Below, one piece after another: positions 17,750 to 62,966 of a stretch of DNA of 64,000 nucleotides. Below the pieces are notes generated by a model. It made no database searches, had not been told where the DNA came from, and saw nothing but the letters and a program-made list of their open reading frames with translations. This DNA comes from Membranipora membranacea (lineage: Eukaryota; Bryozoa; Gymnolaemata; Cheilostomatida; Membraniporidae). The translations under genes and the position numbers were made by a program. The stretch lies in NCBI GenBank assembly GCA_914767715.1, contig OU612071.1, positions 14,814,948-14,878,947 of the forward strand, in the 5' to 3' direction. How positions within the stretch are numbered: the first letter of the stretch is position 1; the number at the start of each line of letters is the position of its first letter.

Positions 17750-18010
17750 AGTCAGACCCCTGACACCGGACCGGGACCAATAAGGCTAGTCTCTGAACAC
17801 TTCTGGTAACCGTTCTTTCACTATCAGACCCATGATACTCAGTTAACCCTTTACCCTCTCTGAAATTTTTGTACACTACAGAAACAGTCCTGACCTTTCC
17901 ATCAGGCCCAGGAAAAACCGCTTTCACTTTAGCGATAGTGAACTGACCTCTCAGAGAATTAGAATCGGAAATGAGAACTATGTCACCAGGACAGAGGTTT
18001 GGGGAAGATT

Positions 18011-18829
18011 TTACCCACTTTGACTGTTTGACAATGGATGGTATATAGAGCTCGATCCATCTTTTCTTTTCTTTAGTAGGCTACTGTCATAACTTTTAGT
18101 CTCATACAACTGACCTGGGTTTTCTGATAATGACCTACCCAAGAGTAAACAATTAGGAGTCAGAAGGTTTATCACAGAGTCACTACTAGGGAGAATACCA
18201 ATAGGCCTTTCATTTAACATATTAGCTACCTGATAACAAATGGTGTTGAATTCAGATGGCGACACTCTTCGGTTGTCAAGTGAAAACTTGAAGCCTCTCT
18301 TGGCTGTTTTGATTAGCGACTCCACAGCACCTTGCCTCCATGGGCTATCTGCAGCTCCAAAGATCCATTCCGTTCCCTTGATAACTGAGGTCTTTAGAAT
18401 CCCTTCTCTATTCATCTTCTTCCAGGCCTCTGTGAGCTCCCGCTCCGCTCCTATAAGCTGACTACCAGGATCAGAGTAGATGGTTTTTGGCCATCCACGT
18501 AGACTGGTGAATCTTGTGAGTGTATACATGAACGACTGTGTATCGTAGCCATACACTGGTTCAATATGTACTGCGCGAGAGCATAAATCCGTAAAGCACA
18601 CTGCCCAGACTTTTCCTGAAGTTCTCTTCTGAATTTCACCCTTGACTGTGAACGGTCCGAGGTAGTCTAACATAACCTTGTTGAATGGAGGAGCGGGTTT
18701 CAACCTGTCTGTAGGGAGTTTTGCCATTTCCTGTCTGAGTAGTGTAGGATCCCTGAGCTTACATTTCTGACAGCTGAGTTTCACTGAGTTAGCGAGTATT
18801 GATCCTTGAGGAGTCAAAACTTGTACCAA
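18011..18829 (-). pseudogene. Pao integrase core
   Basis: This 272-codon open frame is the best-preserved part of the Pao element. It shows the integrase catalytic triad in context: D in MLDYLGPF, D in IYSDPGSQLIGA and E in RQGAVESLIK. An upstream zinc-binding region is partial (SCQKCKLRDPTLL). The frame shifts near its end into the DUF5641-type tail. Integrase inserts the reverse-transcribed element into the host genome; here it belongs to a defective copy. Confidence 0.9.
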
Positions 18830-21133
18830 AATCTGGTGAGAGTAGAGTCCCGTCCTCTATGTCCACATTCTATATGTGCCGCAACCACAGCTAATCTGGT
18901 GTATGGATGGTCAGAAGGTAATAGTGTTTGAAGATCGTCAGAAGATCGTCAGAAGAGTCGGAACTGAAAGGATTGTATCCAGATAACCTTCCTCCTATCA
19001 CCCAATTCCCACGCTCATTCATAACTGGCTTCGCGGCTTGTACTTCCCTTTAGACTTAGTTTTCAAATCCAACATGGTTGATTGAACGTCCCGAATGATG
19101 GCTTCCCTTGCCTGTTGAAGGATAGCTGGAGTTCCTTGAATACCACATCCCTTCTTGAATCTGCTTTTAACAGCAGATATGACTTTCGCTAGGGTCCACA
19201 AAAGTCTGTTGTGAGAACTGAATTTCTCATAAGCTATCAGTGGTGCAGGTTGCAACTTTGCAGATGTAGTATGAACCTTCTCTCCCAGGAGGGAGGCTAC
19301 TGGATTCAGTTCACTGTAAGACTTGATAGGCCAGTCGGACATTGGTTGAGAGAGGAAGTTAGGTCCATTATACCAGATTGAATCTGGTCCTATCTCCGCT
19401 GGAGACTTTGGTCTTGTGAGCCAGTCAGCAATGTTCTGCTTTCCCTCCACCCAGTGCCAATCAGACATCTGTCCACTGCAGGCAGCTTGCACCTATCCAA
19501 CACGCACACCTTCATACAGTTTAAAGCGAGTTGCGACGCTGTTCAGCATACAAAGTATAATCTCAGAGTCTGTCAGATAAACAATCTCACTTCTTTGTCA
19601 ATCACCTTCTTAGCTCTCTTTGCCAAAAGTGCGCCGCTCAGATCCATCTGTGGTATAGTAACCTTTTTGATAGGTGCTATACGATTCTTAGCAAATATCA
19701 GTCGGCTCCAGAACTTTCCATTAGTCAGCTTCCATCTGATGAATACAGCTGCTCCAAATGCTAGCTCACTTCCATCACAGAAGACAATCAGCATTGGTTT
19801 TCCATCCGAGTTTTCAGGTTTCACTCATCTGTTGCAACGAAGATCAGATACAGTAACCAGTTGAGTGAAGAATGTTATCCATCTCTTATGCAGATCCTCA
19901 GGTAGCGAGTCATCCCACTTCAGCTGTTGAGTCCAGGTTTCTCTCAAGTTATACATGGCGGCTAGCAAGAATGGACTCAAAAGTCCCAACGGGTCAAAGA
20001 CATTCATAACTTGCTCTAGAACCTTTTGTCTTGTGAGAGTATAAGGAAGAGTATACGGAGTTTATACTGAGCCTAATCTTCTACTCGATTCTATTCATTC
20101 CATTGCTGTAGGTCTGCTTAGGTGAGCTTTCTGCAAACCTGCCGATTCACCATGTCCTGTATTTGATCTGAGTAGATCTTAGACCATTCTTGGTCTTTCC
20201 TGAGAGTACGCTCTGTGTTTTTCAGCGTGGCTAACGCAGAGCAGTAGTTGTTTGGCAAAAAGATGAGGATCCTTCACCCATGGATACTTGGTTATCCAGC
20301 GCTTATTCTCTTTATCATAGGTTAGGTTCTGTCTGATGATATCAAGCTCTTGTTCCTCAGTGAATGAGAATGAATGCCCGACAATTGGACATTTGGAACA
20401 TCTGCAGCCACCACACTTAGGTGTGATCTCCTTACCCAGCTCAGCTCCAATTATGAAGTTGTAAGCGATCTCATCATTCCTGGCTGTCATGCAGTTTGAA
20501 GGAGGATTTTAAAACTCATCATGGGAATGGTAAACAGAGAATTGCACCGAGAGAAAATGATGTTGGTGTTGCTGATGTCTATCAGTAATGTTGTGCATGC
20601 TGTCAGGTCAGGATGTACTCCTTGTACAGTGCGTCCGAGAGGCCTTTCCAGAAACCTCAGATTATCTCCTGCTTCAGCTAAAATCTCCTCTGGATGCAGC
20701 CCCAGGTGGTCGTTGCCCAGAAGAATATCTACCTTGGTTGAATCTCGCTTCAGTGAGTCCAACTTCTGACCAGGAAACAGCTTAGTGAGAGTGTCCAGAT
20801 CCGGGGGACTGACAGGTCCAGTAATAGTATCCATTCCAAAAGCTCATACTCTCCTCAGCTCTCCATCTGTGTCTCTAACATGAACTTCGTACTGGCAGGT
20901 GTTATACTGTGTATCAACGCCTCCCATAGTCAGGATGTTCAGAGGTACACGCTTCAGCTCTCTTGCTTTAATCCTAGTTGCAGCAGAGTGAGTGATGTAA
21001 GACGAGTCAGAACCTCCATCAAAGAAGATAAGTACCTGGTTTGTACTGTCTGGTGCTTGAACTTGATTCAGAGCATAGATGGAAGCAGGATCACGCTTAG
21101 TATTGTTACTTTCTGTAGTGATGGATGACATAC

Positions 21134-21436
21134 TTACTTACTTACAGGGGAAACTTTAGCTGATGCACAGTTTTGAGAAGTTTTGTTAGATTCAGTTTGA
21201 GACTGATTACTACCTGCACTAGGCTTTCTACACATAAGAGAATGATGATCAGTGCCCTTACAAAAATCACAAGGATCCTTAGCAGAGCAATCATTCCTCA
21301 TATGCCTACCAAAACACCTAACACACAAGCCAGCCTTTCTAAGAGCGTTGGTCCTACTTTGTCTAGTCATAGATTTGAAACCTCTACATGATGCTGTATC
21401 ATGTGTTTTGTTTGACTTGTGGACAGTACAAAACAA
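21134..21436 (-). pseudogene. Pao Gag zinc-knuckle region
   Basis: The frame carries two cysteine/histidine knuckles (CVRCFGRHMRNDC, CDFCKGTDHHSLMC) that bind RNA in the Gag protein of Pao elements, preceded by the basic stretch TRQSRTNALRKAGL. It runs into the protease frame at 21131. Gag sequence upstream (about 21440-21660 on the minus strand) is in another frame, so it is frameshifted. Confidence 0.85.
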
Positions 21437-21753
21437 AAACTCAGAGGTAAAACTCAGTATTAGCAGTATTACTCATAGCAGTATCAATACTCAACTCAGG
21501 GGTTTCCTCTGAATACCCATGGAAACTTTTACTAGTCTTAGGCCTTGTAGAACTGCTTGCGTCAGATTTTAGAGCAATGCGCTCACTCATTCTAAGTGCG
21601 GCATCACGTTTGTCTTCAAAAATAGCATGATGGAAGAAAATGGTCTAACCCTAGATTGGCCTGATAGTTTACGATGAACGTCTAACCATTCCCATTGGAG
21701 ATTGGAGGGTAAGAGGTCAGAGAGGTTGTCTACTTTATGTAAAATTATATAAT

Positions 21754-30176: not shown

Positions 30177-31459
30177 TTTCTGTGTGTTTATCTGACCGGC
30201 AGTAGCTTGTGTTGATGATTAAGTCTTCCACATGTGGTTAAAACAGACTTACAAATGAATGTGTTAAAAAGTTTGTAGCACCAATACTGAAGGTCCTGCC
30301 TGAAGGATGAATTACACAACACGGGTCACTGCTCCTAATCACATCACATCACATCATAATGATATGTTGATATTCGGATCGGTCTTTGACATTACAGAAA
30401 TCTCGCAACATCATTAAACAGGCTGACTGATCCTTTTAGCACCTTGAAACATTACAGTAAAGACTGTGGCACATATATATGCTTCTAGGACTAGATAATA
30501 ACCATGATAAAAGATTCAAATTTCATTGAGGACCTGTCAACTATTAATTAGTTAATGCAAACTAGTGAGCTGAATTGAATATAAAGGAAATTTAATTAAA
30601 TCATTTTTGCACTAGAAAACTTTCCACGATAAGTAAGGGGTTACACCCAACCTGGAATTGAATCGAAAAAAAATCCACCAACCTTCCGTTGACAATTTGT
30701 CTATATACTTGTCTACCGGCTATATTTTTATGACATTAGCTTGGACATCAGCGTGGACATCAGAGTGTCAAGTCTCATTTTTAATTATCATGAATATATT
30801 TCATAAGCATTTGAACCATAAAAGTTTTAGTATGTAAACTTTGCGTTTTCATCAACTTTGAACTAAAGAAGATATTTGATTCCATTGGGAGACATGCAGA
30901 GATGTATGATTGAAATTTAGATTCTTCAATGCATCACGGTTATGTGTAACATTGAGCGCTATGAGTCTACCCCTGAATTGTCCTTCATGCCACTGGCCTG
31001 GCTGTGACAGTTGGTTGCATCACCAAGCTATATCATATATATATAAGAGGCTTACTCCACCATATGTTACGCTTTATGGATCATTGACAATAAGGATACT
31101 AGGATACAGGAAAGTTGGCCTACCATCGCTCTTAGATCTGTGTAATTATGCATGCTAAAAGCATGATTGTTGCTATTTCTACTAACCCCATCTTAGAGGA
31201 TAGCGATTGTCAGCTATACACTCTATAATCAAATATTTTCACTCTAAGAAGAACTCCGTCAGACCGAATTAATAATCTGTGTTTTCTCTAAATGCGAAGA
31301 AGAAAAAGGCTTCTATACTCCTACCATTACTATAGAGCATCGCATCATTTGTTTTGGAATGTCTCACTGACCAAGAACCAGCGAACTTGCCAGAAGTTTG
31401 TATTACGCATCCAATTTCATGGTGGCGATAAAAATTAATGCTCACAATAAGGTAAAATA
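30177..31459. other. Intergenic between the WSC gene and a LINE
   Basis: This contains the promoter side of the WSC gene (minus strand). No TATA box or other element can be assigned with confidence. The open frame at 30910-31158 has no supporting signal. An ACATC/ATCAC tandem patch lies near 30340-30356. Confidence 0.35.
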
Positions 31460-33358
31460 ATGACAAAGAGTGGAGATAATCCACTTAACTTTAGTTTTTC
31501 AACAAAGCTTCTGTTCGGATGGGAGGGTTCATGGCATAGGCACCTGGGAACTTGCGGGCCATTAACTTTTGCCCGAATTAAGTATAAACCACCACAAACT
31601 TGTATTGGACATGGGCAAACTACAGGCTGCATAGTTGGTACCCAGGAAGATCAAGGATTGGCTGTTTGTAAATCTCATAGCTACAAACCAGAGCAGGACA
31701 TGGAAAATAGTCTGTCAATTTTTATTATGTTGAAAGGAAAATGGATCAGAATGTGCAGGGCGGTTCGCAACCACAAAACGGCCAAATGTCAGTCTTCCAT
31801 CCAGCATGAGATTAGGTATGCCAAGCGAACGTTAGCCAATCAAGTAGACGTGAAGTTCCAAACAGACAGTAAGACCGCTTGGGCTAATTTGAAATCTCTG
31901 CTTAAATTGAATGATAATCGTGCTGAGTGCTCTGTGAACGTCAATACCTTGAATACTCTTTTTGCTAGATATGAGACTGATTCTGTGATAATACCTGATC
32001 TGCCTTCTGTAGATCCTAATGTTGAATTTTTTACTATCAGTGATGTGTACAATGTGTTCAGGAACGTAAACGTTGGTAAAAGTAGTGGCCCTGATGGAAT
32101 ATCGGCACGGATGATAAGAACACTAGCAGATTGTATAGCTGCTCCTATGTGTACTTTGTTCAATATCTCGCTACAAAGTGCCACTGTGCCCGATATTTGG
32201 AAAGCTGCCAATATAGTGCCTTTACCTAAACTGAAAGGCGCAACAGAACCTAAAGACTTTAGGCCCATCGCCCTGACACCATTCCTCGCTAAGTGTCTTG
32301 AGAAACTTGTAGCGCCCCACATCAGTGCTCACATTGCCGATAGTAACCAGTTTGCCTATAAACGTAACAGCAGTACAGACGATACACTATTGTTGTTACT
32401 TGACAAAATCACTAATCATCTCGATAGCTCTGCAAAGAATTATGTACGCTCGATTTTCATTGACTTTAGCAGTGCTTTTAATACAATCAACAGTAACACC
32501 CTAGTCCAAAAGATGTCATCTCATAAAGTAAACCCCAACATCGTATCCTGGTCATATAACTTTCTGTCATCACGTACACAGCGAGTGAAAGTAGGTAATA
32601 CTCTATCTAACAGCATCATAACACCAACTGGATGCCCTCAGGGATATGTCCTCAGTCCCATCCTCTTCTCACTTTACGTAGACGACATGGCAGTAAGTGA
32701 TGATCACACCATCATAAAATACGCCGATGACACTGTGATATTAGAATTCATCTCGCCAAAATCACCATCATCACTGCAAGTTGAAATCAATAATATCAGA
32801 TCCTGGTGCACAAGAAACAGTCTGCTCATCAACACAAAGAAAACCAAAGAGCTTGTTTTCTGTAATCTACGCGATGATCCTGACCCTCCACCCATCATGA
32901 TCAACAACTCCACCATCGAACGAGTAGATGAATACAAATATCTTGGCACCACACTCAATCATAAGCTTAACTTCAATACGAACACCAAAAACATCATCAG
33001 CAAAGCTAACAAACGACTATTCATCATGAAGCAGCTAGCCTTTATGAATGTCAAGACAACTACCATTAAGCTGGCATACACCTCATTTCTCGAAAGTGTC
33101 CTACAATATCACCTATGTATTATATACGGACACCTCTCATCTGATATTAAGAACCAGTACAATCACCTCATCAACACAGCACGTAGACTAAGCAAAGGCA
33201 GGCTTGAAGTTACAACCATAGACAATATATTCGATAAGTTCTTCAAAACTAAATGCCTGAGAATGTTCGCTTCGGGCAAAGACACTGTCATAACGCTAGA
33301 ACAACTCCCTTCTGGTAGATACAGAGTGCCAGCCTACCGTGTAAACTGCCGTAAATAG
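31460..33358 (+). mobile_element. Non-LTR retrotransposon (LINE), reverse transcriptase frame without endonuclease
   Basis: A single uninterrupted frame of 632 codons, by far the longest in the window. The reverse transcriptase motifs appear in order: GKSSGPDGISARMI, PKDFRPIALTPFLAK, QFAYKRNSSTDDTL, FIDFSSAFNTIN, GCPQGYVLSPILFSLYVDD and the catalytic KYADDTVI, then EYKYLGTTL in the thumb. The layout is that of CR1/Jockey-type LINEs. The apurinic endonuclease expected at the N-terminus is absent, and the first 80 or so codons do not look like LINE protein, so this is a 5'-truncated copy. Because the frame is intact it is probably young. It shares the ending PSGRYR with the copy at 53408-54850, so both belong to related families. 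Confidence 0.93.
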
Positions 33359-48842: not shown

Positions 48843-51800
48843 TTATGGCAGTACATCATAAATGTGATCGTCCATGTTCAACTCAGCGTATGTCTCATCT
48901 GGGCTTTCCTCCTGACCAGCTTGATTCTTCTTGTTGCTTTTTTCACTCCCGACAACGTTCATATAGATACCAGCTGGACTGTAAGTAGTATGATTGGGTT
49001 GTACAGCTCAGTGTCAAGAAAGTCATTTAAATTATTATGATTATATCAAATCATACATAATATCAACATCTGTTGACAAATTGATGCACAATAATAATGA
49101 TCTGATATCATTGTTGAATGGAAGTGAAGCTACATAACAAGATGTACTGTGAACTGCGACAATGAATCATGTCTGTATTCAGATGTTTGGTCTTGCTGAA
49201 AGCTCTGTGGATCAATATGTCATTAACTCCTGCCTGAGAAAGAATCAGTTGAACAAAACTTACACATTATTCCTGTTGTTTGTTTTGGCCCTCAGTCTGA
49301 TGATATAAAGGACAAGTATAAGCACAGAAATAACGACTATAATCACAACAGCTAAAGAGATTAATGCGATATGTAGACTTGATATACTTGGAACTTCAGT
49401 GAATTTCCTGGTCGTCATTGCGTGGTTTCCGTCTGAAAATAAATGGTGGGATGTTTCAAAAGTTAGATGTGATTATTGCTGTTTATACCTCTTGACCAAT
49501 AACAGAAAATGACCTCCTTTAAAGGATCAATGATTGTTTCTCCTTTTACGGTTGAGTTCTGCATTCAGCCAAATCAAACTGACTCTTTAGGAAAAAAAAT
49601 TGCAAAGCTCCAAACATTTTGCAAACAAAATTTATAAGAAACTTAAAAGCAGATTTTATGCTTGTTTCAAATTTAAATCAATTAATCCGTCCTATGAGCA
49701 GTGTCAGCATTTTATTCAGACTCTGATTTTACCTATTCTTATGTACAATGCTGAGCTATGGTTTCATTCATGGTACCGAAGGTGAACGTAACATGCTGCT
49801 CAAACCTTTTACCCGTGCTAAATTCAACTGTGGTATTAAGGAGCTAGTCACTCAACACATTTTTAGAACTGCAGCAGATTTTTATAGAGACCCAGATCAT
49901 ATTTTAAACCACTGTTATGTGAGCCATAGGAACTATTTTATTTGTAGCAAATCGCGAACTGTACGCTTTTTTAACAGCTTTGTGCCGAACAGTATTCGCA
50001 TTTTAAATGACGCAGCCTTCATGCCACACTAGTTTTACCTCATCATTGATATTGTGTAACCAATAAATCTTATCTTATCTTAACTTAAAAGCAAATCTAT
50101 AGCCAGTGATAGAAAATACAAATTATCACATTTTTTAGATTTTGGTTCAGGTTTACGAGATGATGTACCTATAGTTCTTGATTTCATTGGCAGCCAACCT
50201 GTTGTATTAGTATTTGTATAGTATAGTGCAGTGCAGTGCAGTGCAGTGCAGTGCAGTGCAGTGCAGTGCAGTGCAGTGCAGTGCAGTGCAGTGCAGTGCA
50301 GTGCAGTGCAGTGCAGTATAGTGTAGTATTTGTTGTATTTGTTGTATTCCCTAGATGAGGAGTGATGTGATATCTCAGATGTGAGCACTGACATATGAGA
50401 TCCTTAAAATACAAACAATATTTATGAATGATCCTGATTAAAAATAACACTGAATTTTTTATATACCGTGCTCTATAGAGACTATATGAACAAATGCAAG
50501 CAAGTTAGGCTTATAGTTTTGCTTAGCTTTTAGAGTTTCAGAGTCATGAAATATAAAAACAAACATTTGTTGCTGTCGTTCCAGAGGAATAAAAGTCAGT
50601 AATGTTAAAATTAATGAGTTAAGAGAGGAAATCTGATGACTTGTTGATAGTAGTATGAAGTGGCAGTATCAAACTCAAACAAGGAGTTGACGTTAATATC
50701 TTTGAAGGCTAGTAGCCGCATTCTGTATAGCAAGTCTACACAAAGTATTCTCAGTGGCATATTGCATCCCTATAACAGCAGTTGGCATGCAATTTCAAAC
50801 AGCGGAGATTGGATTACGGAAGCATCACTAAACTCTAAAATGCTATACAATTTATATGAAATACACCTTAAAGTTATATAGGCTAGTTATATTATTGTAG
50901 ATGACAGTTGTTTTGTCTGTGAGTTCTCTCAAGCTAACATCTTCATTCATTTGTAGCATTGAATATGAAATTCAAAATAATTTAAAGGTTTAAGTATGGT
51001 AACCTCTACCTCACATCATTCTAAAGCCAGCAGCATTAGGTACTTGTTGAGGAGAGAATGAAAATAATATTAGGTATTAATAGAGTAGGATCGCTAAGAA
51101 CTAGAATTGCAAGTTTCTTCAACTAGAATCATAATTGGCACTGCTAGACAGAAATCTTCTTCAAGTTGCTGCATCAAATTCATATTTAACATGATATAAA
51201 GGTTAGTCGCTGAGGAGTTTGTTAACTAGTATAAAACCGGTTATGCATGCCAAACTACCTTCTGGAAAATATTAATACTAGTGATCACCTCTCTAGTTCA
51301 CATTATCGCATTGCTAATTACCCCTACCTGAAGCACAAAGCCTCACCACAAAGTAAAAGTTTTTTGTCAAGCTACAACACCGCATTGAAATTGATTTTGC
51401 TCATTAAAAACTTCTAGAAAGAATTTTCAACAACAAACCCTTTTATTCTTCACCTCAAGCCAAATCTATGGCCCTGACATGGTGATACAGCATTGTCATC
51501 ACCACCCAGGCGGCAATGCAGATTTAATTAAGAGTTTTTATAGCAGTATTCAATATTCACCAACTGAAAGGCAAACCCGCTATACTATTAAAGTTTTACA
51601 AATGGATTCATATCATGTCATTTAATGACCAGAATTTTTTGTTGTGTTAATAAAAATTGTCACCACCCTAGAAATTCTGTATAACATCCTGATTTACATC
51701 CGCTTCTAATCCTATACACTCAAATTTATATTTAATTAATATCTTTAGTAAAGGGAACAGTATTCTGAAAATTACCCCTGAATTTTCAGCTACTCTCATC

Positions 51801-54800
51801 ATATTTGTTTACGTTTGTAGATTTTTAATCCCCTGAGAAATGATAGTACAAATTAAAAATCATTGGCAAAGATGATCACAATAATTTTAATCATAAAATT
51901 TTCTTCTGCTCCTATTTTAAGCTTGGTATTTTATGTGATCAATAGTGATGAGCTAAAAGAAACAATGCAGATTACCACCACCAACAACTTCTTCAAACCT
52001 TAGCCTATTATTGCAGATGAAGAATTACACTCCAGAATTATTTTCTCTGGGTACCAATAGTTCCAACAGTTGATGACCCCTAAATTACAAATTATAATTA
52101 CAAGATTAACTTCAATAGTGAATTTTAAAATGACGATTGATAGGATTAAAATTTTCCCCTTATTCCAAGGCATGAATAGGTCACTGAAATGCAAAGGAGC
52201 ATACTTCCTAATATGTCAATTTAGTGGTGTAAACTTGCGATACAAAATGTGGTGTGCACTTTCAACTTTCAACAAATTTGTTGAGAGTTTTGTGCCATTG
52301 ATTGAAAGATTCTTAACAGTATTATATGAGAGATTCTTGATTCCACAGTATTTTGTATTTTGTCTTTGACTATATATCATACACTTAATTAACTTACCTT
52401 TGATTTCAACAGTGACATTACACGTATTATCTCCTCCGACTATCTCATACTGATAATTACCAACAGGTAACTTCATTCTGTGTGTTTTACCTTCTATAGC
52501 CAGATCAATATCAGCTAATCCAGTAGCAGGGGAGACAACTTCTCGCATAGTTTCTGGGCATGTTATATCTAGCTTGGAGGTGCCTGTCCGAAAATATTAC
52601 AACATTATTATGGATTATTTACTTGCTTCTGATCAGAAAGATTTATTAACTTCTCAGCCACAATCCAGTTATTTATTTCATATTTCACATAGAACACATT
52701 AGGGTAAGAGAACAAAACTACCTAACGTAAAAGATGATGTGCTGAACATATGTACATTGATTGACTAAATGCTGGTAAATGCTTGGTAATTGGTTAACAC
52801 TAGAGAGCAACAGCAACTGAGAATAAGTTGAAACCATTACATTTCAATTTTAATACTCATCGCCACTACTAATCAGGCAGTAACAAATTTAGGCATTTGT
52901 TGGATCCAAGCCAGCAAGGTAACACTAGGTAGCTAAATGTTGGTTGGGTGTTTAAAGCTTGGTATATTCATACTCACCATTATTTATGACTATGATGTTT
53001 TTAGTACAATTGTCTCTATGAATGGTGTGACTACCCACAGCAAATCTAGTCTGTATGTCAGGAGTGACCTCCAGTAGTGCTCTCTCCCCATCAGATGTCA
53101 CATAGAGTGTCACGTTTTTGTCCTGGCAAGCCGCTTGTGTCAAAGTTATCTGCGTAGTAGTTGTCGGTGTGGTAGTTGTTTGTGTGGAGGTGGTCGATGT
53201 GCTAGTTGCCGGTGTTGTTGTTGTTGGTGTGGAAGTTGTATTTGTTGGTGTGGTTGTCAGCATGGGATCTAAAAAATTGAAAACTGTTCATGATGATGAT
53301 GAGGATTTATTACTATCATAGACAAAAATTTGTCACGAAATACGTTGTTAATACTGACAAGAAAGAAAAACATGGAGAAAATCAGATCTCTGTTGTATAA
53401 AAAGTTTTTAGAATAGTATGTTATTAAGTGTATGTATGAGATGTCTTAAAAAGCTGTCTCTACCCCATGTACCCCGATATTTAACGGTGCGGTAGCGACC
53501 TGAGGGGCATTTAGTTAGAAAGTCATTGATAAAGTGCTCTTCATCGTGTATGTACCGTAGTCCAAGTGTCTTGATCTGGTTGGCCACCAGAGCATCTATA
53601 TCGGGGTGCTCAATCCCTAACTTGGCGGCATCTTTAAATATTTTGCGTAAGGACTTCTTGTCGCTTGCATGGATGCTTGTAAAAATTATGGGGAGACAGT
53701 AAGTGATGAGGGATACAATAAAACTCTTGAATAACATATGAGAAAGGGGCTTTGAGCTATAGTATACAAAATTTTTCACAATATACATGCGTTGAGATGC
53801 AGTAGTCACTATGGATTGCACATGATCATGATAGCGGAGTTTATCGTCAACAGTAACACCAAGGTATTTTACTTTGTCACAAAAATCAACTTCCGTGCCG
53901 TTAAGGATGAGAGTAGGGGTAATGGGCCTAACAAGCTGAGTAGAAAACATCATTTCTTGAGTCTTGGAGGCGTTTAACAATAGGTTTAAATCACAACATT
54001 GCTTTGAAATTCTACTAATCTCATCAAGATAGGCACTAAGATCTGATTGATTTGATATGCATCCAATTATACAGGTGTCGTCTGCGTATTTAATGACAGT
54101 TATATTGCTCAAGTCTGAGGTAATCCTATTGGTATATATTGAAAACAAAAGTGGAGATAAACAGCAACCCTGGGGAGTGCCAGTGTTGGTTATGATGGGT
54201 TTTGAGATATTGCCATCTACTATTGTTCTTTGGGTGCGATTCGTTAGGAAGCTGTATATCCATTCAGTGACATTGGAGTCGAGATGTGATAGTTGCAAGA
54301 TTAAGTCTGGAACATGTATTGTGTTGAATGCAGAAGAAAAGTCAAGGAACAGACACCTGGCATAATTTGAAGCTTTCTTGTCAATGAAATCTGTGATGGT
54401 AGTAGTGAGGCATAAAAGAGCATCTTGAGTTGAGCGGTTTGCACGATAAGCAAACTGAAGGTGGTCCATAGCTGTATGAGTAATAATGTAATGTTTAACA
54501 AGTCTCTCCATCATTTTGCACAGGCAACTGGTGAGCGCTATTGGTCTGTATTGTTTAAGTTGATTGGGATTCTTAACTTTGGGTAGGGGTTTGATAATGG
54601 CCGATTTCCAGGAAGTAGGGGTTGACTTAGACGTGATAGATAAATTGAACAGTTTCGTTATGACAGGCGCCAGTTGATAGGCACATAGCTTAAGTACTTT
54701 GGGGATGAGGCCATCAGGGCCTGGACCTTTCCTCGAGTTGTTGTTGTTGAGTTACTTTGATGGTACCGATTTTCTATCGACGGTGCTGCTGTTTTGATTT

Positions 54801-56520
54801 ACAAGTTGAGCATTATGAGTTACCATTTTCAAATTAATTTTTTCATGCGAACGAGTGATAAACACGGTACATACACCGACAGAGACATATTCATATCAAT
54901 GATGTTAATACTGTATACTCACATATGAACTTCTGGATAGTTAGGTATTGTCCGACATACAGAGAGTTGTCAGTGATAAGAAGAGAAGAGGGATAGGTCA
55001 GACATCCTGAGCAGAGATCTAGTGTTGACACTCTGTCTGCTTTCATGTCTACAAGTCGGGTCTTGTTGTTATCCTTGTCAGCAACAAGTAGGATCTTATT
55101 ACTGATTAACACGAGGTCATAAGGGAAGTTGAATAGAGAGCTAAGGAGCGAGTTATCACTGTAGCCTCTGTTTCCAGGTGAGCCCGAGATCAGCCTGATT
55201 GTCTTCTCTCTGTATGTGATGTGGTACAGTGCGTGTTGATCTGCTGCTGTAACAAAGAGGTCCCCGTTCTCATTTTGTGTCAGGTGACTGATATGCAGAA
55301 GGATGCCAGACTTTACGAAAGTACTGACATCTTCTGTGTTTATGTCTACAGTCCGTACAGCACTGTTTTCAAAGTCAGTGACAAGGAGCTTCCTCTCATC
55401 ATTTCTGTCTCTTATTACAGACCAGGGTTTGAAGAACTGACCAGGACGACCATCTGAGTATCCCTTTGCCTCACATTCCCCGCTGAACTGAGAAGTGATC
55501 CCTTGTGGGCGGTCCACCATTCTCAGACAGTGATTTTTGTGGTCTACTACAACCACACGCTTCTCTGTGATCTGTGTGAATCCAAATATATAGTGGAACC
55601 GAGCCTCAGATCCCCTTCCCTCTTTGTATCCCTTCTCTTGAGTGTACCCAGCTATGATGGTGGAGGAGGTACCATCACTTGTCTTCATTGAGTTATAGTC
55701 TGTGTAGATGACTTGACCCGGTTTGTATAGATCCATTTCAATATGATAAACATACCAAGCAGCCGTGGTGAAGTTTGAAGCAGTTGATCTCTCTAGTCTG
55801 TAAATAATAATTCTTTATGAAGTGTTGCTCTTTAACATATATTATTTTCTATATTATAATATGACCTACATTGCATAGTCATCCCTGGTGTTAATTATCT
55901 TGAGTTGTGCTATACTATTGCTACAAACACAGATTTTTGTCCATAAAAACTGTGAGTATCCAACCAAACTGCACATGCCACGCCGATATCTGCTAATAAG
56001 ATGATTTCAGCATTGAAATTTCGCTTCCTGCACAATCCCAAACAAATGTATGCTGTAATCTCGCTTGGAACTCATGTCATTCATCACAGCAACTGCATAC
56101 CAAAGCTTAATAAATGGATATTATTCAATATGGATTTGAGTTAAAAAGACCATAACTCACTGATCAACTAGCGACTGTGTATCCTGATCCGTACACCAAG
56201 CACACATCAGAGTCATGCAACAGACAGCCTGTAACAAAGTAAACCTTGACAAAACTTCAATGCTCTTTGGTATAAGAGAATTTACCATGACAAATTATGT
56301 TGACGAGGGACAAATCCCATAGATTGCGAAATCTGTTTGAACATAATGAGATAGATGTAACAGCTTCGAACACTTCATCAAATTGGTGTCACCGTGTCAT
56401 AGCAGCATGAAAACAAGTCAATTTTGCTTTAAGGCTTGATATTTCAGATATAATCATGTTTAATGTAGTTATCACAATTCTTGTTGCACTTACAAGAAAG
56501 AGAACAAGTCCCAACTCCAT
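48843..56520 (-). CDS. ITAM-bearing NHL-repeat/HYR-like transmembrane receptor, complete 7-exon gene
   Basis: Minus-strand exons 56494-56520, 56161-56228, 54923-55797, 52978-53268, 52398-52583, 49264-49432 and 48843-48978 join in phase to 583 aa. Residues 1-21 (MELGLVLFLAVCCMTLMCAWC) are a signal peptide split over two exons. Residues about 50-323 form an NHL-type beta-propeller (GYKEGRGSEARFHYIFGFTQ, VVVVDHKNHCLRMVD, KGYSDGRPGQFFKP, GYSDNSLLSSLFNFP, LLVADKDNNKTRLVD). A Thr-rich stalk follows at 327-365. Two HYR-like beta-sandwich modules lie at about 369-420 and 422-482 (FAVGSHTI...CTKNIIV; LPVGNYQYEI...CNVTVEI). One membrane span lies at 503-527 with a basic stop-transfer end (RLRAK). The tail has YMNV (Y544, a Grb2-type SH2 site) and YAELNMDDHIYDVL (Y569, Y579), which fits YxxL-x6-YxxL. 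A signalling receptor is inferred; the ligand is unknown. An in-frame upstream ATG at 56640 exists, but the internal start gives the signal peptide. Confidence 0.88.
49600..50085 (+). mobile_element. LINE 3' fragment
   Basis: Two overlapping frames encode the C-terminal part of a non-LTR element (YKKLKSRFYACFKFKSINPS, LILPILMYNAELW, then ILNHCYVSHRNYF and a stop at 50030). A frameshift separates them near 49760. The end ACCAATAAATCTTATCTTAT resembles the short tandem 3' tail of CR1/L2-like LINEs. It lies in the intron between the span and HYR exons of the ITAM receptor gene, in the opposite orientation. Confidence 0.75.
50222..50316. repeat. (GTGCA)n pentanucleotide microsatellite
   Basis: About 18 perfect copies of AGTGC in a row, within the receptor intron. 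They open long spurious frames on the minus strand (repeating YCTALHCTALH in translation). Confidence 0.95.
53408..54850 (-). mobile_element. LINE reverse transcriptase nested in the receptor intron
   Basis: A 368-codon frame (53408-54514) plus upstream sequence in another frame to about 54740. RT motifs in order: IALTSCLCKMMERLVKHYI, QFAYRANRSTQDALL, FLDFSSAFNTIH, GTPQGCCLSPLLFSIYTN, KYADDTCII, and KVKYLGVTVDD; it ends with KCPSGRYRTVKYRG. The conserved start of RT (KVKNPNQLKQYRPIALTS) is in the upstream part, and the endonuclease is missing, so the copy is 5'-truncated. It lies in intron 3 of the ITAM receptor gene in the same orientation, between the NHL exon and the Thr-rich exon. Confidence 0.92.
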
Positions 56521-59060: not shown

Positions 59061-60196
59061 TGCTGATTTTGTTCGCGAAACTATTATAGACATTCAAGTC
59101 CACCGAAAAACACGTTTTGGAATACTGCAAAATGCAGTAAAGCGTTTTCCCTTGATGGCCCTACAAAATTTTTATGATATCAAATTTTGTTTTTCACCAG
59201 AGCTCACCAACTGTTTTATTTGATACCCCGGGGTATTTCAACACTTGAATAAAAATAAATCACTAATTGTGGAGGTACTGTAAAAAAGGACCATCTTACC
59301 TGGCATCGGTACCCACCAGCCGATCAGAGCCAGAACACTGGCTTGGATAGGCTGGTAAATACAAGCTTTAAGTTTTCTTAATTGTAGATGGCTTCTCATT
59401 TTTATGAGACTGTATCTCCCACTTCTTAGCCGTGAAATTTGTAATGGATGTGTACATGATTTTCTTCTATTGGCCACGACATTATTTTTTTAAGCGTTCA
59501 CACTATGTAAGGAAATATTTGGATGTCTTTTATTCTATTATGCCTGCAAATAGAGGCTTCAATGGCTTCAAGGACAACGAAATCAACTAAACGAAAAACT
59601 AAACAGAAAAAAAGGACGTGAATGGAAATTTATCGAGTTCATTTGAGTTTGAGAAAGTGCACTGTTAAGATAGTAAACAATGTATCACCCAATGTTACAA
59701 TGCGCGAAAATGATGCAGCCACATTTTCCTTATACATATTGCAGAGGGAGTCCATAGCTTATGAATCATTTAGGTCTTTGATCTCTAATCAGATCTAGGA
59801 TCATTAAATAAGTTATATATTTGGTGATAATGTAAAACATCTGAGCTAATTCAGCTGGATTCTGCCGTGGGAATATGTCATACATATGGCATATGTCAAT
59901 GATAACTTATTTCATCCAGGTGATGAAAGGGCTTTACACAATTATGTTGTTGTGAAATCATCAGATATATCTTAATTAAGCTTTCGGCATTAGAGTTTGG
60001 CTGATGCTCCGTTTTTTCTTCATTTTTCTTATCTTCACATCGCCTACGGTGATAAATGTTGAGCTAGTTTGTCTTGCTGATGAAGAGTGACCAGTCTTCC
60101 TCTTCTTCTTTTTCACATCCTTATCCTGTTGTGTAGGCTCTGTTTGAGGGGCAGTAGCTCAAGTCCCCACATACTTCTTGGCTATCAGTATAACAG

Positions 60197-62912
60197 CAGC
60201 AGTTAATAGCAGGGTCAACAAGGTCACCAGGATATCAGAATGGGGTTGGAGGAGATGCCAGGTTTGATAACATCAGAGGTTTCATGCAGCTGTCCCCTGA
60301 TCAGGTTATCATCGCTGATCTAATGAATCATTGTCTGAGATCTGTTGATCGTGCAACAAACAGGACATCAGACTATGCAGGGAATTGTACATCAGGAGGT
60401 GACAAAGATGGATTTGAAGGCTTACTTGATTATCCCGCATCAGTTTTACTCGATGTAAAGAATCCCAATCGACTCATTATTGCTCAATTTTGGGCTTTGC
60501 GATCTCTGAATATTGTTACGAAAAGTTTATCAACCATTTTGCGTGGGGTATACACTATGATTCAAGAGAAAGTCACAGGGAACATTTATATAACTGGTTA
60601 TAACCTGATTGGTTATTACAGCCTTGATAGTAATACTTTGACAACACTAAGTAGTGATGGGGATTATTATTCGAATGTCCAGTTTTTAGATGAACACACC
60701 CTCCTTCTGTCTGGGAATTCAGATAACAGACTAAGAGTCCTCAATCTTAAAACAAATACATCCTCCTACATTTGCTCCGGTTTCAGAGGACATGATAGCG
60801 GTAACTTAACCTCCTGCAGATTATTTGTTCCGCGGGGACTGCTCATCCTCAACAATACTCTCTATATCGGGGAATACCAGCGAATAAGAACAGTCCAGGG
60901 TAAGTGCAGTTGGGGTGTGGAACCTGTGTTTATCTTTTGCTAAATTGACTCAAAAATTAATGAAATTCAGGTATTTTAAGGTTGTTGTTGGTGCTGAGAT
61001 CAAAGATGATAATTAGGCATGGGTAATTTTTGTTTGAATTTTCTAAAAAAGGTATTTTTATCTCTCCAAACAATGGTTGCATAACTCTACCTTACTAACT
61101 CTAACTAACCTGATTGCAAGCAATCAGGTTTGTCAAACGCTCATATCATATGGTTTAATTTATAATTGTGTATTGCTTTTAAATTAAACAAAATTTTGTG
61201 ACTCATATGCTAAGAAGCACTGATTTATTTATGTGTTGATGTATGCTGATGAATTTAAAATGATGATCATGAGTAGGACCCATTAAATGCTGACACGGAA
61301 AGCCTTCAACTTCAGACTGGGGTTTGTGTACAAGACCTCATTGATGATTTGAATCGGCGATCAAATATCAGTGGTATCAAAGGTTTTCACTACTGTGGCA
61401 CATTATGCTATGATAGGTCATCATCTCTATTCTATCCTTTCCACTCTCTATGTTTAAACAGGAAAAATTGTTCAAACATCACCAGGAAGACCTACATCAA
61501 CTTATCCAACATCTCCAACTACTACAGCAACTCCAACAACACAATCTGTTCCCACTACCACAACTACTTCAACTACTACAACTATTTCGACTACACAAAC
61601 AGCCACTACTTTTTTAATTACCACAAAAACACATTCTACTACAACAGCCACCACTGCTTTAACTACTTTGACCGCTTCAACTACCACAACAGCCCCCCAT
61701 ACTTCAAAAGCTTCCACTGCTACAAATTTTTCAACTATTTCTACAGCTACCACTGCTACTGGTAAGATAACATTGAAATTGGGTTATTTGTAAGTCAAGC
61801 TTTAGGAATTTGTAAAAAAAAGTTAGTGCTTTGTTTTAGAGTTTTGAAGACTAAGTCAACTATGTGCCTATTCGACAGTTCAAAGAAACTTCTGCGCATG
61901 TTGATGGTAGTGCCATCTAGCATTATTTGAAAAGGATGTTGCTGTAATTAGATAGCTTTATCTATCTGGTATAAGGTATTGAAATCATATTCTTGAAATT
62001 GATTAGTCCAATGTTCTTGCAAAATGTGAAAAAAGTGATGATTATTCAAATTGTTATCCTTAGCCAAAGACTCATGCACCAAAACTAACACAAAGTCATC
62101 ACCTTCTACTGCCCAGATAGCAATTATATGTTCAACCGTGGCTGTTGTACTGTGTACTCTTATCATTGGAGTGGTGATTGTTAAGATGAAAGCCAAGCCG
62201 CCAACCAGATCCTCAGCTCAGAGGTAAAGTGGAACAGGGAGCTGATTCTGTAGATATATTTTGGAACCATAATGGACACAAACTCATTCTTATACAGTAT
62301 ACAACAACGCTGTCTTTTCTTGTAAATGATATCGCACTGGTAATTCAAACAGCGTCATATTCAAACACTTTCTCATTCACAATATTACCATCAAGATCCA
62401 AGCTTAATCAGGTTATTTGTACAGTTATTTGAGGCAAATATTAGTATTAAAACCTGATTTGTAAACAAACCTAGGCCTTATCATTTTAATCATACTTTCA
62501 GCCCTTCTGAAGCTGATGACATTCAACTGGAAGTTACTGACACTGCTTCCATGGTCGGGAATCAGGTAACTATGCAAGATGAAGAAGATGATCGGAACTA
62601 CCAGACAGATATGAGTCAGCCTGATCCTCATGTATACAGTTCACTAAGGTGAGTTGTGAGGAAAGTTATATTACCCCAAACATTACTTCTAAGACAAAAA
62701 CATTTGGTAAAATCATAGGTAAACTATTTGATGCAGTATATAATTCCGATCGTAGCACGCATAAATTTTCATAGCCAAATGTGTTCAAAATGAACAATAT
62801 TTTGTTCTCTTACTTCAGCCCTCCTACCGCTGATCACAGTCATCATGAAGTTGCTGAAGCTGCCACTGGAATCAGGAATCAGGTCAGTGTACAAGCTGAA
62901 GAAGATGACTGA
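60197..62912 (+). CDS. NHL-repeat, Thr-rich transmembrane receptor, paralogue of the ITAM receptor; 5' end not found
   Basis: Exons 60197-60899, 61462-61761, 62064-62223, 62502-62648 and 62819-62912 join in phase. The first encodes the NHL propeller (GGDARFDNIRGFMQLS, VIIADLMNHCLRSVD, GGDKDGFEGLLDYPASVL, LFVPRGLLILNNTLYIGEYQ) and aligns along its length with exon 3 of the minus-strand receptor. The second is a Thr/Ser/Ala stalk of 99 residues, mucin-like and probably O-glycosylated. The third has the membrane span (AIICSTVAVVLCTLIIGVVI) and a basic end (KMKAK). The fourth is a cytoplasmic tail, acidic (DEEDDRNY) and ending VYSSL, a single YxxL motif. The fifth repeats the fourth but stops at TGA 62910. 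There are no HYR-like modules. The acceptor before 60197 is weak, a stop lies just upstream in frame, and no signal peptide was located, so it could be a partial or broken copy. Confidence 0.72.
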
Positions 62913-62966
62913 GAATACTGTGGCCCAGATCCGGCTGATTATCACCGATACAGCTTGCCCCTGTAA
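62913..62966 (+). pseudogene. Out-of-frame remainder of the duplicated tail exon
   Basis: After the TGA at 62910-62912 the same frame stays open for 17 codons to TAA (62964-62966): EYCGPDPADYHRYSLPL. It aligns with the end of the previous exon (NYQTDMSQPDPHVYSSL), where the residue at the TGA position is Arg. So a CGA-to-TGA change probably cut off a second copy of the tyrosine-motif tail. Confidence 0.6.

Follow-up and report, generated by a model that had tools for sequence, protein, structure and literature searches.

A stretch of 64,000 nucleotides from the bryozoan Membranipora membranacea (GenBank assembly GCA_914767715.1, contig OU612071.1, positions 14,814,948 to 14,878,947), hereafter called the window, carries on its minus strand a gene for a putative receptor that joins an NHL propeller to a cytoplasmic tail containing an immunoreceptor tyrosine-based activation motif (ITAM). 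On the basis of sequence comparisons, this gene (the window gene) is rather probably one of the many members of an expanded family of NHL-propeller recognition proteins, and its ITAM is probably a private, derived change in one member rather than the trait on which a receptor class was founded. The gene occupies positions 48843 to 56520 in seven exons (56520-56494, 56228-56161, 55797-54923, 53268-52978, 52583-52398, 49432-49264, and 48978-48843). This model had been proposed in an earlier, sequence-only reading, and it holds: GT..AG is present at all six introns, every junction closes in phase, and the 583 codons run without a stop or frameshift to the final stop codon. The features of the gene are as follows.

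56494..56520, minus strand: exon 1, start of the signal peptide (ATG to GT donor)
56161..56228, minus strand: exon 2, remainder of the signal peptide (VCCMTLMCAWCTDQDTQSLVD); a similar exon precedes the propeller at 29 of 29 paralog loci
54923..55797, minus strand: exon 3, entire predicted six-bladed NHL propeller, residues 32 to 322 (Pfam NHL, AlphaFold, Foldseek, genome matches)
53408..54751, minus strand: reverse transcriptase open reading frame (ORF) of a long interspersed nuclear element (LINE)-like element in intron 3 (447 amino acids; Pfam RVT_1, 6e-35)
53135..53268, minus strand: exon 4, part 1, Thr-rich stalk (from the sequence)
52978..53134, minus strand: exon 4, part 2, first extracellular module, about 52 residues (CQDKNVTLYV..); in 24 of 29 paralog loci, at most 1.5 kb downstream of the propeller
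52398..52583, minus strand: exon 5, second extracellular module (CPETMREVV..); 82 to 85% identical exon in paralogs L012, L023, and L027; Pfam HYR negative
49264..49432, minus strand: exon 6, membrane span (about 49299-49376) and start of the tail; homologous exon in paralogs
48843..48978, minus strand: exon 7, cytoplasmic tail; 19 genome matches, its own included
48963..48965, minus strand: Y544 of YMNV, only in the window copy
48849..48890, minus strand: strict ITAM YAELNMDDHIYDVL (Y569 and Y579), only in the window copy

The N-terminal signal peptide that had been claimed is encoded by exons 1 and 2. A signal-peptide exon lies upstream of the propeller in all 29 paralog loci, and at least one small module follows within 1.5 kb downstream in 24 of them. 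The model would fail if the tail exons were part of another gene. In four paralogs (L039, L040, L041, and L042), however, signal-peptide exon 2, propeller, membrane exon, and tail exon follow one another in that order within 3.7 to 4.4 kb, with modules between the propeller and the membrane exon in L039, L041, and L042 but not in L040. Because the paralogs repeat this exon order, exons 6 and 7 are part of the same gene as the propeller, and a chimeric model fusing two genes was ruled out. The label "HYR-like" for the two small, two-cysteine extracellular modules was dropped: neither of them, nor either of two joined paralog pieces, matched Pfam HYR under HMMER filters that drop most matches above an E value of about 0.1. 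Intron 5 contains a tandem repeat with the five-base unit GCACT at about 50226-50317.

We are confident, from profile and structure predictions, that the ectodomain is a six-bladed NHL beta-propeller. Pfam PF01436 (NHL) scored 25.2 bits (cut-off, 20) for the whole protein, no single repeat passing alone, and 26 of 30 aligned family members matched NHL at an E value of 0.01. The sequence-only reading had named an NHL ectodomain and suggested predicting its structure; the AlphaFold model of the propeller (predicted local distance difference test score [pLDDT], 96.7; predicted template modeling score, 0.93) bears this out. A Foldseek search with the model returned NHLRC2, SOQ1, and TRIM-NHL proteins, including the TRIM71 NHL domain, as top matches (probability, 1.00), and also the extracellular domain of PknD; for those listed of these four, query-normalized template modeling scores were 0.69 to 0.80 and identities were 12 to 20%. 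A profile built from 30 homologous sequences likewise led to Protein Data Bank (PDB) chains of NHLRC2, SOQ1, and TRIM-NHL. All of these share the NHL propeller with the window protein. NHLRC2 and the TRIM proteins are intracellular, while PknD has an NHL ectodomain on a signaling protein and a receptor role, and so offers a precedent for the arrangement seen here. To our knowledge, none of the four kinds of protein has a tyrosine tail.

The propeller exon had at least 135 matches, the window's own included, in the genome from which the window comes (one assembly of 339 Mb); this count is a lower bound, as 134 of 509 candidates were scored. A cluster at C8:19.8-21.75 Mb holds 44 of these matches, two of which are fragments of a single exon, and the window copy lies outside it, on C7. 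The NHL-ectodomain architecture had been described as that of a single receptor; it is present, yet it characterizes a large, expanded family and is not confined to one gene. Among protein data, 29 homologs were found at an E value of ≤1e-5, all on contigs of at most 8.5 kb: 28 had 31 to 66% propeller identity, and 1 was a distant propeller protein. Compared with its paralogs, the window propeller exon had a median number of nonsynonymous substitutions per nonsynonymous site (dN) of 0.26, a median number of synonymous substitutions per synonymous site (dS) of 0.80, and a median dN/dS of 0.32. Some relatives are visibly broken, with stops in the propeller of L019 and L025 and in the membrane exon of L044. 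We also fetched the downstream part of seven paralogs that lacked a tail match: six (L010, L012, L013, L023, L027, and L028) end in conserved ..SCV exons, and the seventh, L037, has a membrane exon and a truncated tail.

Three further observations concern the makeup of the family. An alternative conserved C-terminus (L049-L053 and L055) stands behind the same propeller and modules, with no membrane-exon match and no Pfam family over the cut-off. At L045 (G000:C7:27694500-27699000), family membrane and tail exons occur with no recognizable propeller in the 3.4 kb upstream, possibly representing a different ectodomain on the same tail. Finally, the window contains a second, divergent NHL-propeller gene (60194-62960, plus strand), head to head with the window gene. 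Its propeller exon, 30% identical, ends at 60899, and its first blade was not found; a Thr-rich exon (61462-61761), a membrane exon (62064-62223), and tail exons at 62502-62648 and from 62819, containing NYQTD and VYSSL, follow.

Variation among the propellers is concentrated on one face. We compared 28 open propeller exons from 30 loci (L019 and L025 were left out), taking strands from DSSP assignments of the AlphaFold model and assigning loops by hand. The BC and DA loops of such a propeller lie on the same face. Mean entropy was 1.86 in the BC loops and 1.03 in the DA ends, compared with 0.73 and 0.68 in the AB and CD loops of the opposite face and 0.50 in the strands, and 23 of the 30 most variable sites fell in BC loops or DA ends. 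Over whole faces, the means were 1.35 for the top (54 sites) and 0.71 for the bottom (51 sites), with a permutation P value of 0.0002. Pooled dN/dS values for pairs with a dS of ≤0.2 (151 of 351 pairs) were 1.02 for BC loops and 0.63 for the rest, and 0.83 for the whole variable face versus 0.46 for the opposite one; with all 351 pairs, the four values were 0.92, 0.47, 0.80, and 0.54, respectively. Variation of this one-faced kind would be as expected of a recognition repertoire.

In the window tail, Y544 lies in YMNV, Y569 in YAEL, and Y579 in YDVL. The string YAEL-x6-YDVL fits the strict form YxxL/I-x6-8-YxxL/I at residues 569-582, so both the consensus ITAM and the YMNV motif stand in the 583-residue model where the sequence-only reading had placed them. 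The ITAM rule, YxxP as a Crk-type site, and YxNx as a Grb2-type site are consensus motifs. Counting that of the window itself, the genome yielded 19 matches to the tail exon, and all 19 were read. A strict ITAM was present in that of the window and in none of the other 18. The claim of an ITAM behind an NHL ectodomain is accordingly true of the window copy, while that of a receptor class wired to Syk by an ITAM is not supported by the 1-in-19 count, and the ITAM as a family trait was rejected. The Grb2-type YMNV fares in the same way: it is present in the window and, being found in 1 of 19 tails, is no family feature, as the other 18 have G or R in place of its tyrosine.

What the family does keep is a YxxL followed by a second tyrosine 10 residues on. 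The first YxxL is retained in 11 of 19 tails. Any tyrosine is found in 12, of which 10 have the second tyrosine, most often as YxxP (6 tails) and in single tails as YxxL (the window), YxxS, YxxV, or YxxT. The spacing is 10 in all 9 such tails outside the window, compared with the x6 of the window. When 12 of the 19 tails were aligned as DNA, the window differed in a few places: 12 bases present in the other 11 are absent from the window, the last ITAM residue is CTG in the window versus CCG or CCA in 8 of the 11, and the YMNV tyrosine is TAT in the window versus GGN or AGA in the others. When protein data were searched for an orthologue with a matching tail, propeller identities reached 66% and tail identities 71%; the three tails recovered from these other data sets (YADL..YQVP, YAEL..YDVS, and YAGL..YDVT) contained no ITAM. 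As for direction, the outlying L046, whose propeller is 27% identical, has its tail in the long form, and this one outgroup suggests that the form of the window tail is derived. The nearest propeller relative of the window copy in the tree is L037 (support, 0.93). Between the tail exons of the window and L039, dN was 0.09 and dS was 0.55, on only 22 synonymous sites.

How often the motif would arise by chance was judged in two ways. When the 56-residue tail was shuffled, YxxL/I-x6-8-YxxL/I appeared in 0.17% of 200,000 shuffles. On the other hand, six-frame ORFs of at least 20 amino acids in the window (77,260 residues) contained 14 ITAM matches, the gene's own included and some overlapping. 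The motif alone therefore proves little, and an argument from chance based on the motif only was dropped.

The remaining 7 of the 19 tails (L048 and L056-L061) have no tyrosine; C or S, then F, and then H (in six) or D (in one) take the tyrosine positions, with no earlier stop. These tails were first taken as a second signaling class, a view we gave up; they may be either paired-receptor decoys or relics. No membrane exon was found in the 3.3 kb fetched for L048, and L056-L061 were read in stretches of 521 to 561 bases only, so that relics are a possible reading.

Candidate signaling partners are encoded in the same genome, where a search for the SH2 family gave 44 exon matches. The 11 best PDB matches of one SH2 exon on C11 were all SYK or ZAP-70, and on the same strand a second SH2 and ankyrin repeats lie upstream and a tyrosine kinase domain lies downstream. 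This SH2-ankyrin-SH2-kinase order is the HTK16/Shark layout, and the C11 gene is by this arrangement a putative Shark-type kinase. On C9, a tandem SH2 unit had SHP2 as its best PDB match (E value, 2.4e-73). According to passages in the literature, the HTK16/Shark gene is Syk homologous, has an ankyrin region, and is unique to invertebrates (PMC10253181), and Syk-family kinases reach down to sponges (PMC9601881).

These parts could be joined in a mechanism in which the variable propeller face would bind varying ligands, ligand binding would cluster the receptor, and a Src-family kinase would phosphorylate the tail. In the family tail, the YxxL might then be bound by a single SH2 domain and the YxxP tyrosine by a Crk-type SH2, as separate contacts. 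In the window copy, the 12 absent bases and two codon differences would have turned this tail into a strict ITAM plus YMNV, with the ITAM as a possible docking site for the tandem SH2 domains of the genome's own Shark-type kinase. Within this receptor-family account, we put the ITAM being more than an accident at roughly even odds. A broader proposal is that the C8 cluster and the dispersed members form a recognition system not based on the immunoglobulin (Ig) fold, in which hypervariable NHL top faces would read self or microbial ligands, tails with and without tyrosines would act like those of paired receptors, and individual members, the window copy among them, would turn into Shark-kinase ITAM receptors; we consider this broader proposal unlikely.

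Several results weigh against the account of a recognition family with signaling tails. The loops on which the face comparison depends were placed by hand, and in an external set (A1) the difference between top and bottom faces was 0.31 (P = 0.058), in the same direction and weaker. The dN/dS of the BC loops is about 1 without exceeding it, and dS is also elevated there; conversion evening out the rest of the exon may explain the raised dS, and the BC-loop variation may itself be neutral or driven by conversion. The downstream parts of the six paralogs with ..SCV exons had no match to the membrane or tail exon. The tail exon of L037 stops after 20 residues without a tyrosine, and the tail with the lowest dS to that of the window is the tyrosine-free L048 (dN, 0.30; dS, 0.35), which indicates little constraint. 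On the side of the partners, the kinase part on C11, known from exon pieces, had as its best PDB matches one EGFR entry and a designed Src-Abl ancestor and only then SYK, and the SHP2-type gene on C9 is known from its SH2 part only.

The strongest rival holds that the window ITAM is a neutral accident, produced by a 12-base loss and a P-to-L change in a copy outside the main cluster, whose tail keeps its ancestral function or none. Its presence in 1 of 19 tails, the truncated tail of the closest propeller relative, the few changes needed to make a tail with YxxL and a second tyrosine fit, and the 14 matches in the six-frame residues of the window all speak for such an accident, whereas separate differences (12 bases, P to L, and G to Y) jointly make two recognized SH2-type sites, few shuffled tails fit, and the rest of the tail is conserved relative to L039; we give this rival an even chance. 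The copy might instead be a decaying, unexpressed duplicate, as its place on C7 away from the C8 cluster, the LINE in intron 3, its age (median dS of 0.80 to paralogs), and the broken L019, L025, and L044 could suggest; this is quite improbable for a gene with an intact reading frame, six GT..AG introns, and a propeller dN/dS of 0.32 relative to its paralogs.

Two other rivals concern the family as a whole. Its tails could act in the manner of a hemITAM or an immunoreceptor tyrosine-based inhibitory motif (ITIM), a single YxxL after acidic residues recruiting Src, SHP2, or the paired SH2 domains of a kinase from two chains, with the second tyrosine incidental. A hemITAM is a single YxxL preceded by acidic residues; DETYAEL or variants of it occur in the tyrosine-bearing tails, with an acidic run shorter than that of CLEC-2. 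Most tails retain YxxL, and a SHP2-type tandem SH2 unit is encoded, but the residue two before Y569 is E and not the I/V/L/S of the ITIM consensus, and of the 12 tails with any tyrosine, 10 have the second one. According to a passage of one article (PMC12065747), Botryllus fuhc receptors carry ITIM and hemITAM motifs. On this evidence, we hold such a role to be rather unlikely. We are similarly doubtful that the family is adhesion or matrix machinery whose variability arose from duplication and gene conversion and not from non-self recognition: it would fit the other C-terminus, without a membrane-exon match, in six of the seven paralogs fetched downstream and the raised dS in the same loops as dN, but the concentration of variation on one propeller face is unlike a uniform relaxation.

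Two other elements lie elsewhere in the window. Retroelement remains on the minus strand at 17751-21472, BEL/Pao-like by eye, comprise an integrase-like ORF (PF00665, E value of 0.0023, under the cut-off) and a gag-like zinc-knuckle ORF; on the plus strand at 31451-33355, a 635-amino-acid ORF contains a reverse transcriptase domain (PF00078, 6.5e-30).

One of the closest known systems is Draper/CED-1, with an EMI/EGF ectodomain and NPXY; Draper is one gene. The window protein has NHL as its only Pfam family over the cut-off, so that an ectodomain of the Draper/CED-1 type was not found, and its 56-residue tail contains no NPxY. As described in a passage on Drosophila, the ITAM of Draper-I is phosphorylated by Src42A and recruits Shark, and Draper-II has an ITIM and works with the phosphatase Corkscrew (PMC4503800). 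Draper is thus like the window protein in being an invertebrate ITAM receptor, with a Shark-type kinase and an SHP2-type tandem SH2 unit encoded in the window genome too; it differs in that here the ectodomain is an NHL propeller, at least 135 exon matches exist, and the ITAM is found in one member only. In passages of two articles, Hydractinia Alr and Botryllus fuhc appear as receptors of allorecognition loci that are expanded or variable and have ITAM, ITIM, or hemITAM tails (PMC12065747, PMC11999971), and the oyster CgIgIT2 is presented as a surface receptor with a classic ITAM (PMC11999971). The motif-bearing Alr and fuhc receptors belong to the Ig superfamily, whereas the variable domain of the window family is an NHL propeller; CgIgIT2, unlike the window protein, has five Ig domains and no propeller. 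We know of no allorecognition phenotype for the window family. For the sponge Halichondria panicea, a figure legend lists NHL repeats among the domains of candidate pattern recognition receptors (PMC8242945); that passage names no ITAM, membrane tail, or expansion. A literature search outside of which most subscription journals lay found no paper naming both NHL repeats and immunoreceptor tyrosine-based motifs. The passages cited already report ITAM, ITIM, and hemITAM tails for invertebrate receptors built on other folds.

Animal recognition repertoires are known mainly from Ig, leucine-rich repeat, lectin, and scavenger receptor cysteine-rich folds. If the account of a recognition family is true, a family of propellers variable on one face, with tyrosine tails and with Shark- and SHP2-type parts in the same genome, would extend these repertoires by a further fold. 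However perfect a motif in one gene may be, its siblings must be read before it can count as a family feature; here, the siblings suggest that an ITAM may have arisen by a few base differences from a tail with YxxL and YxxP, which, if true, would make the origin of an ITAM testable on close paralogs.

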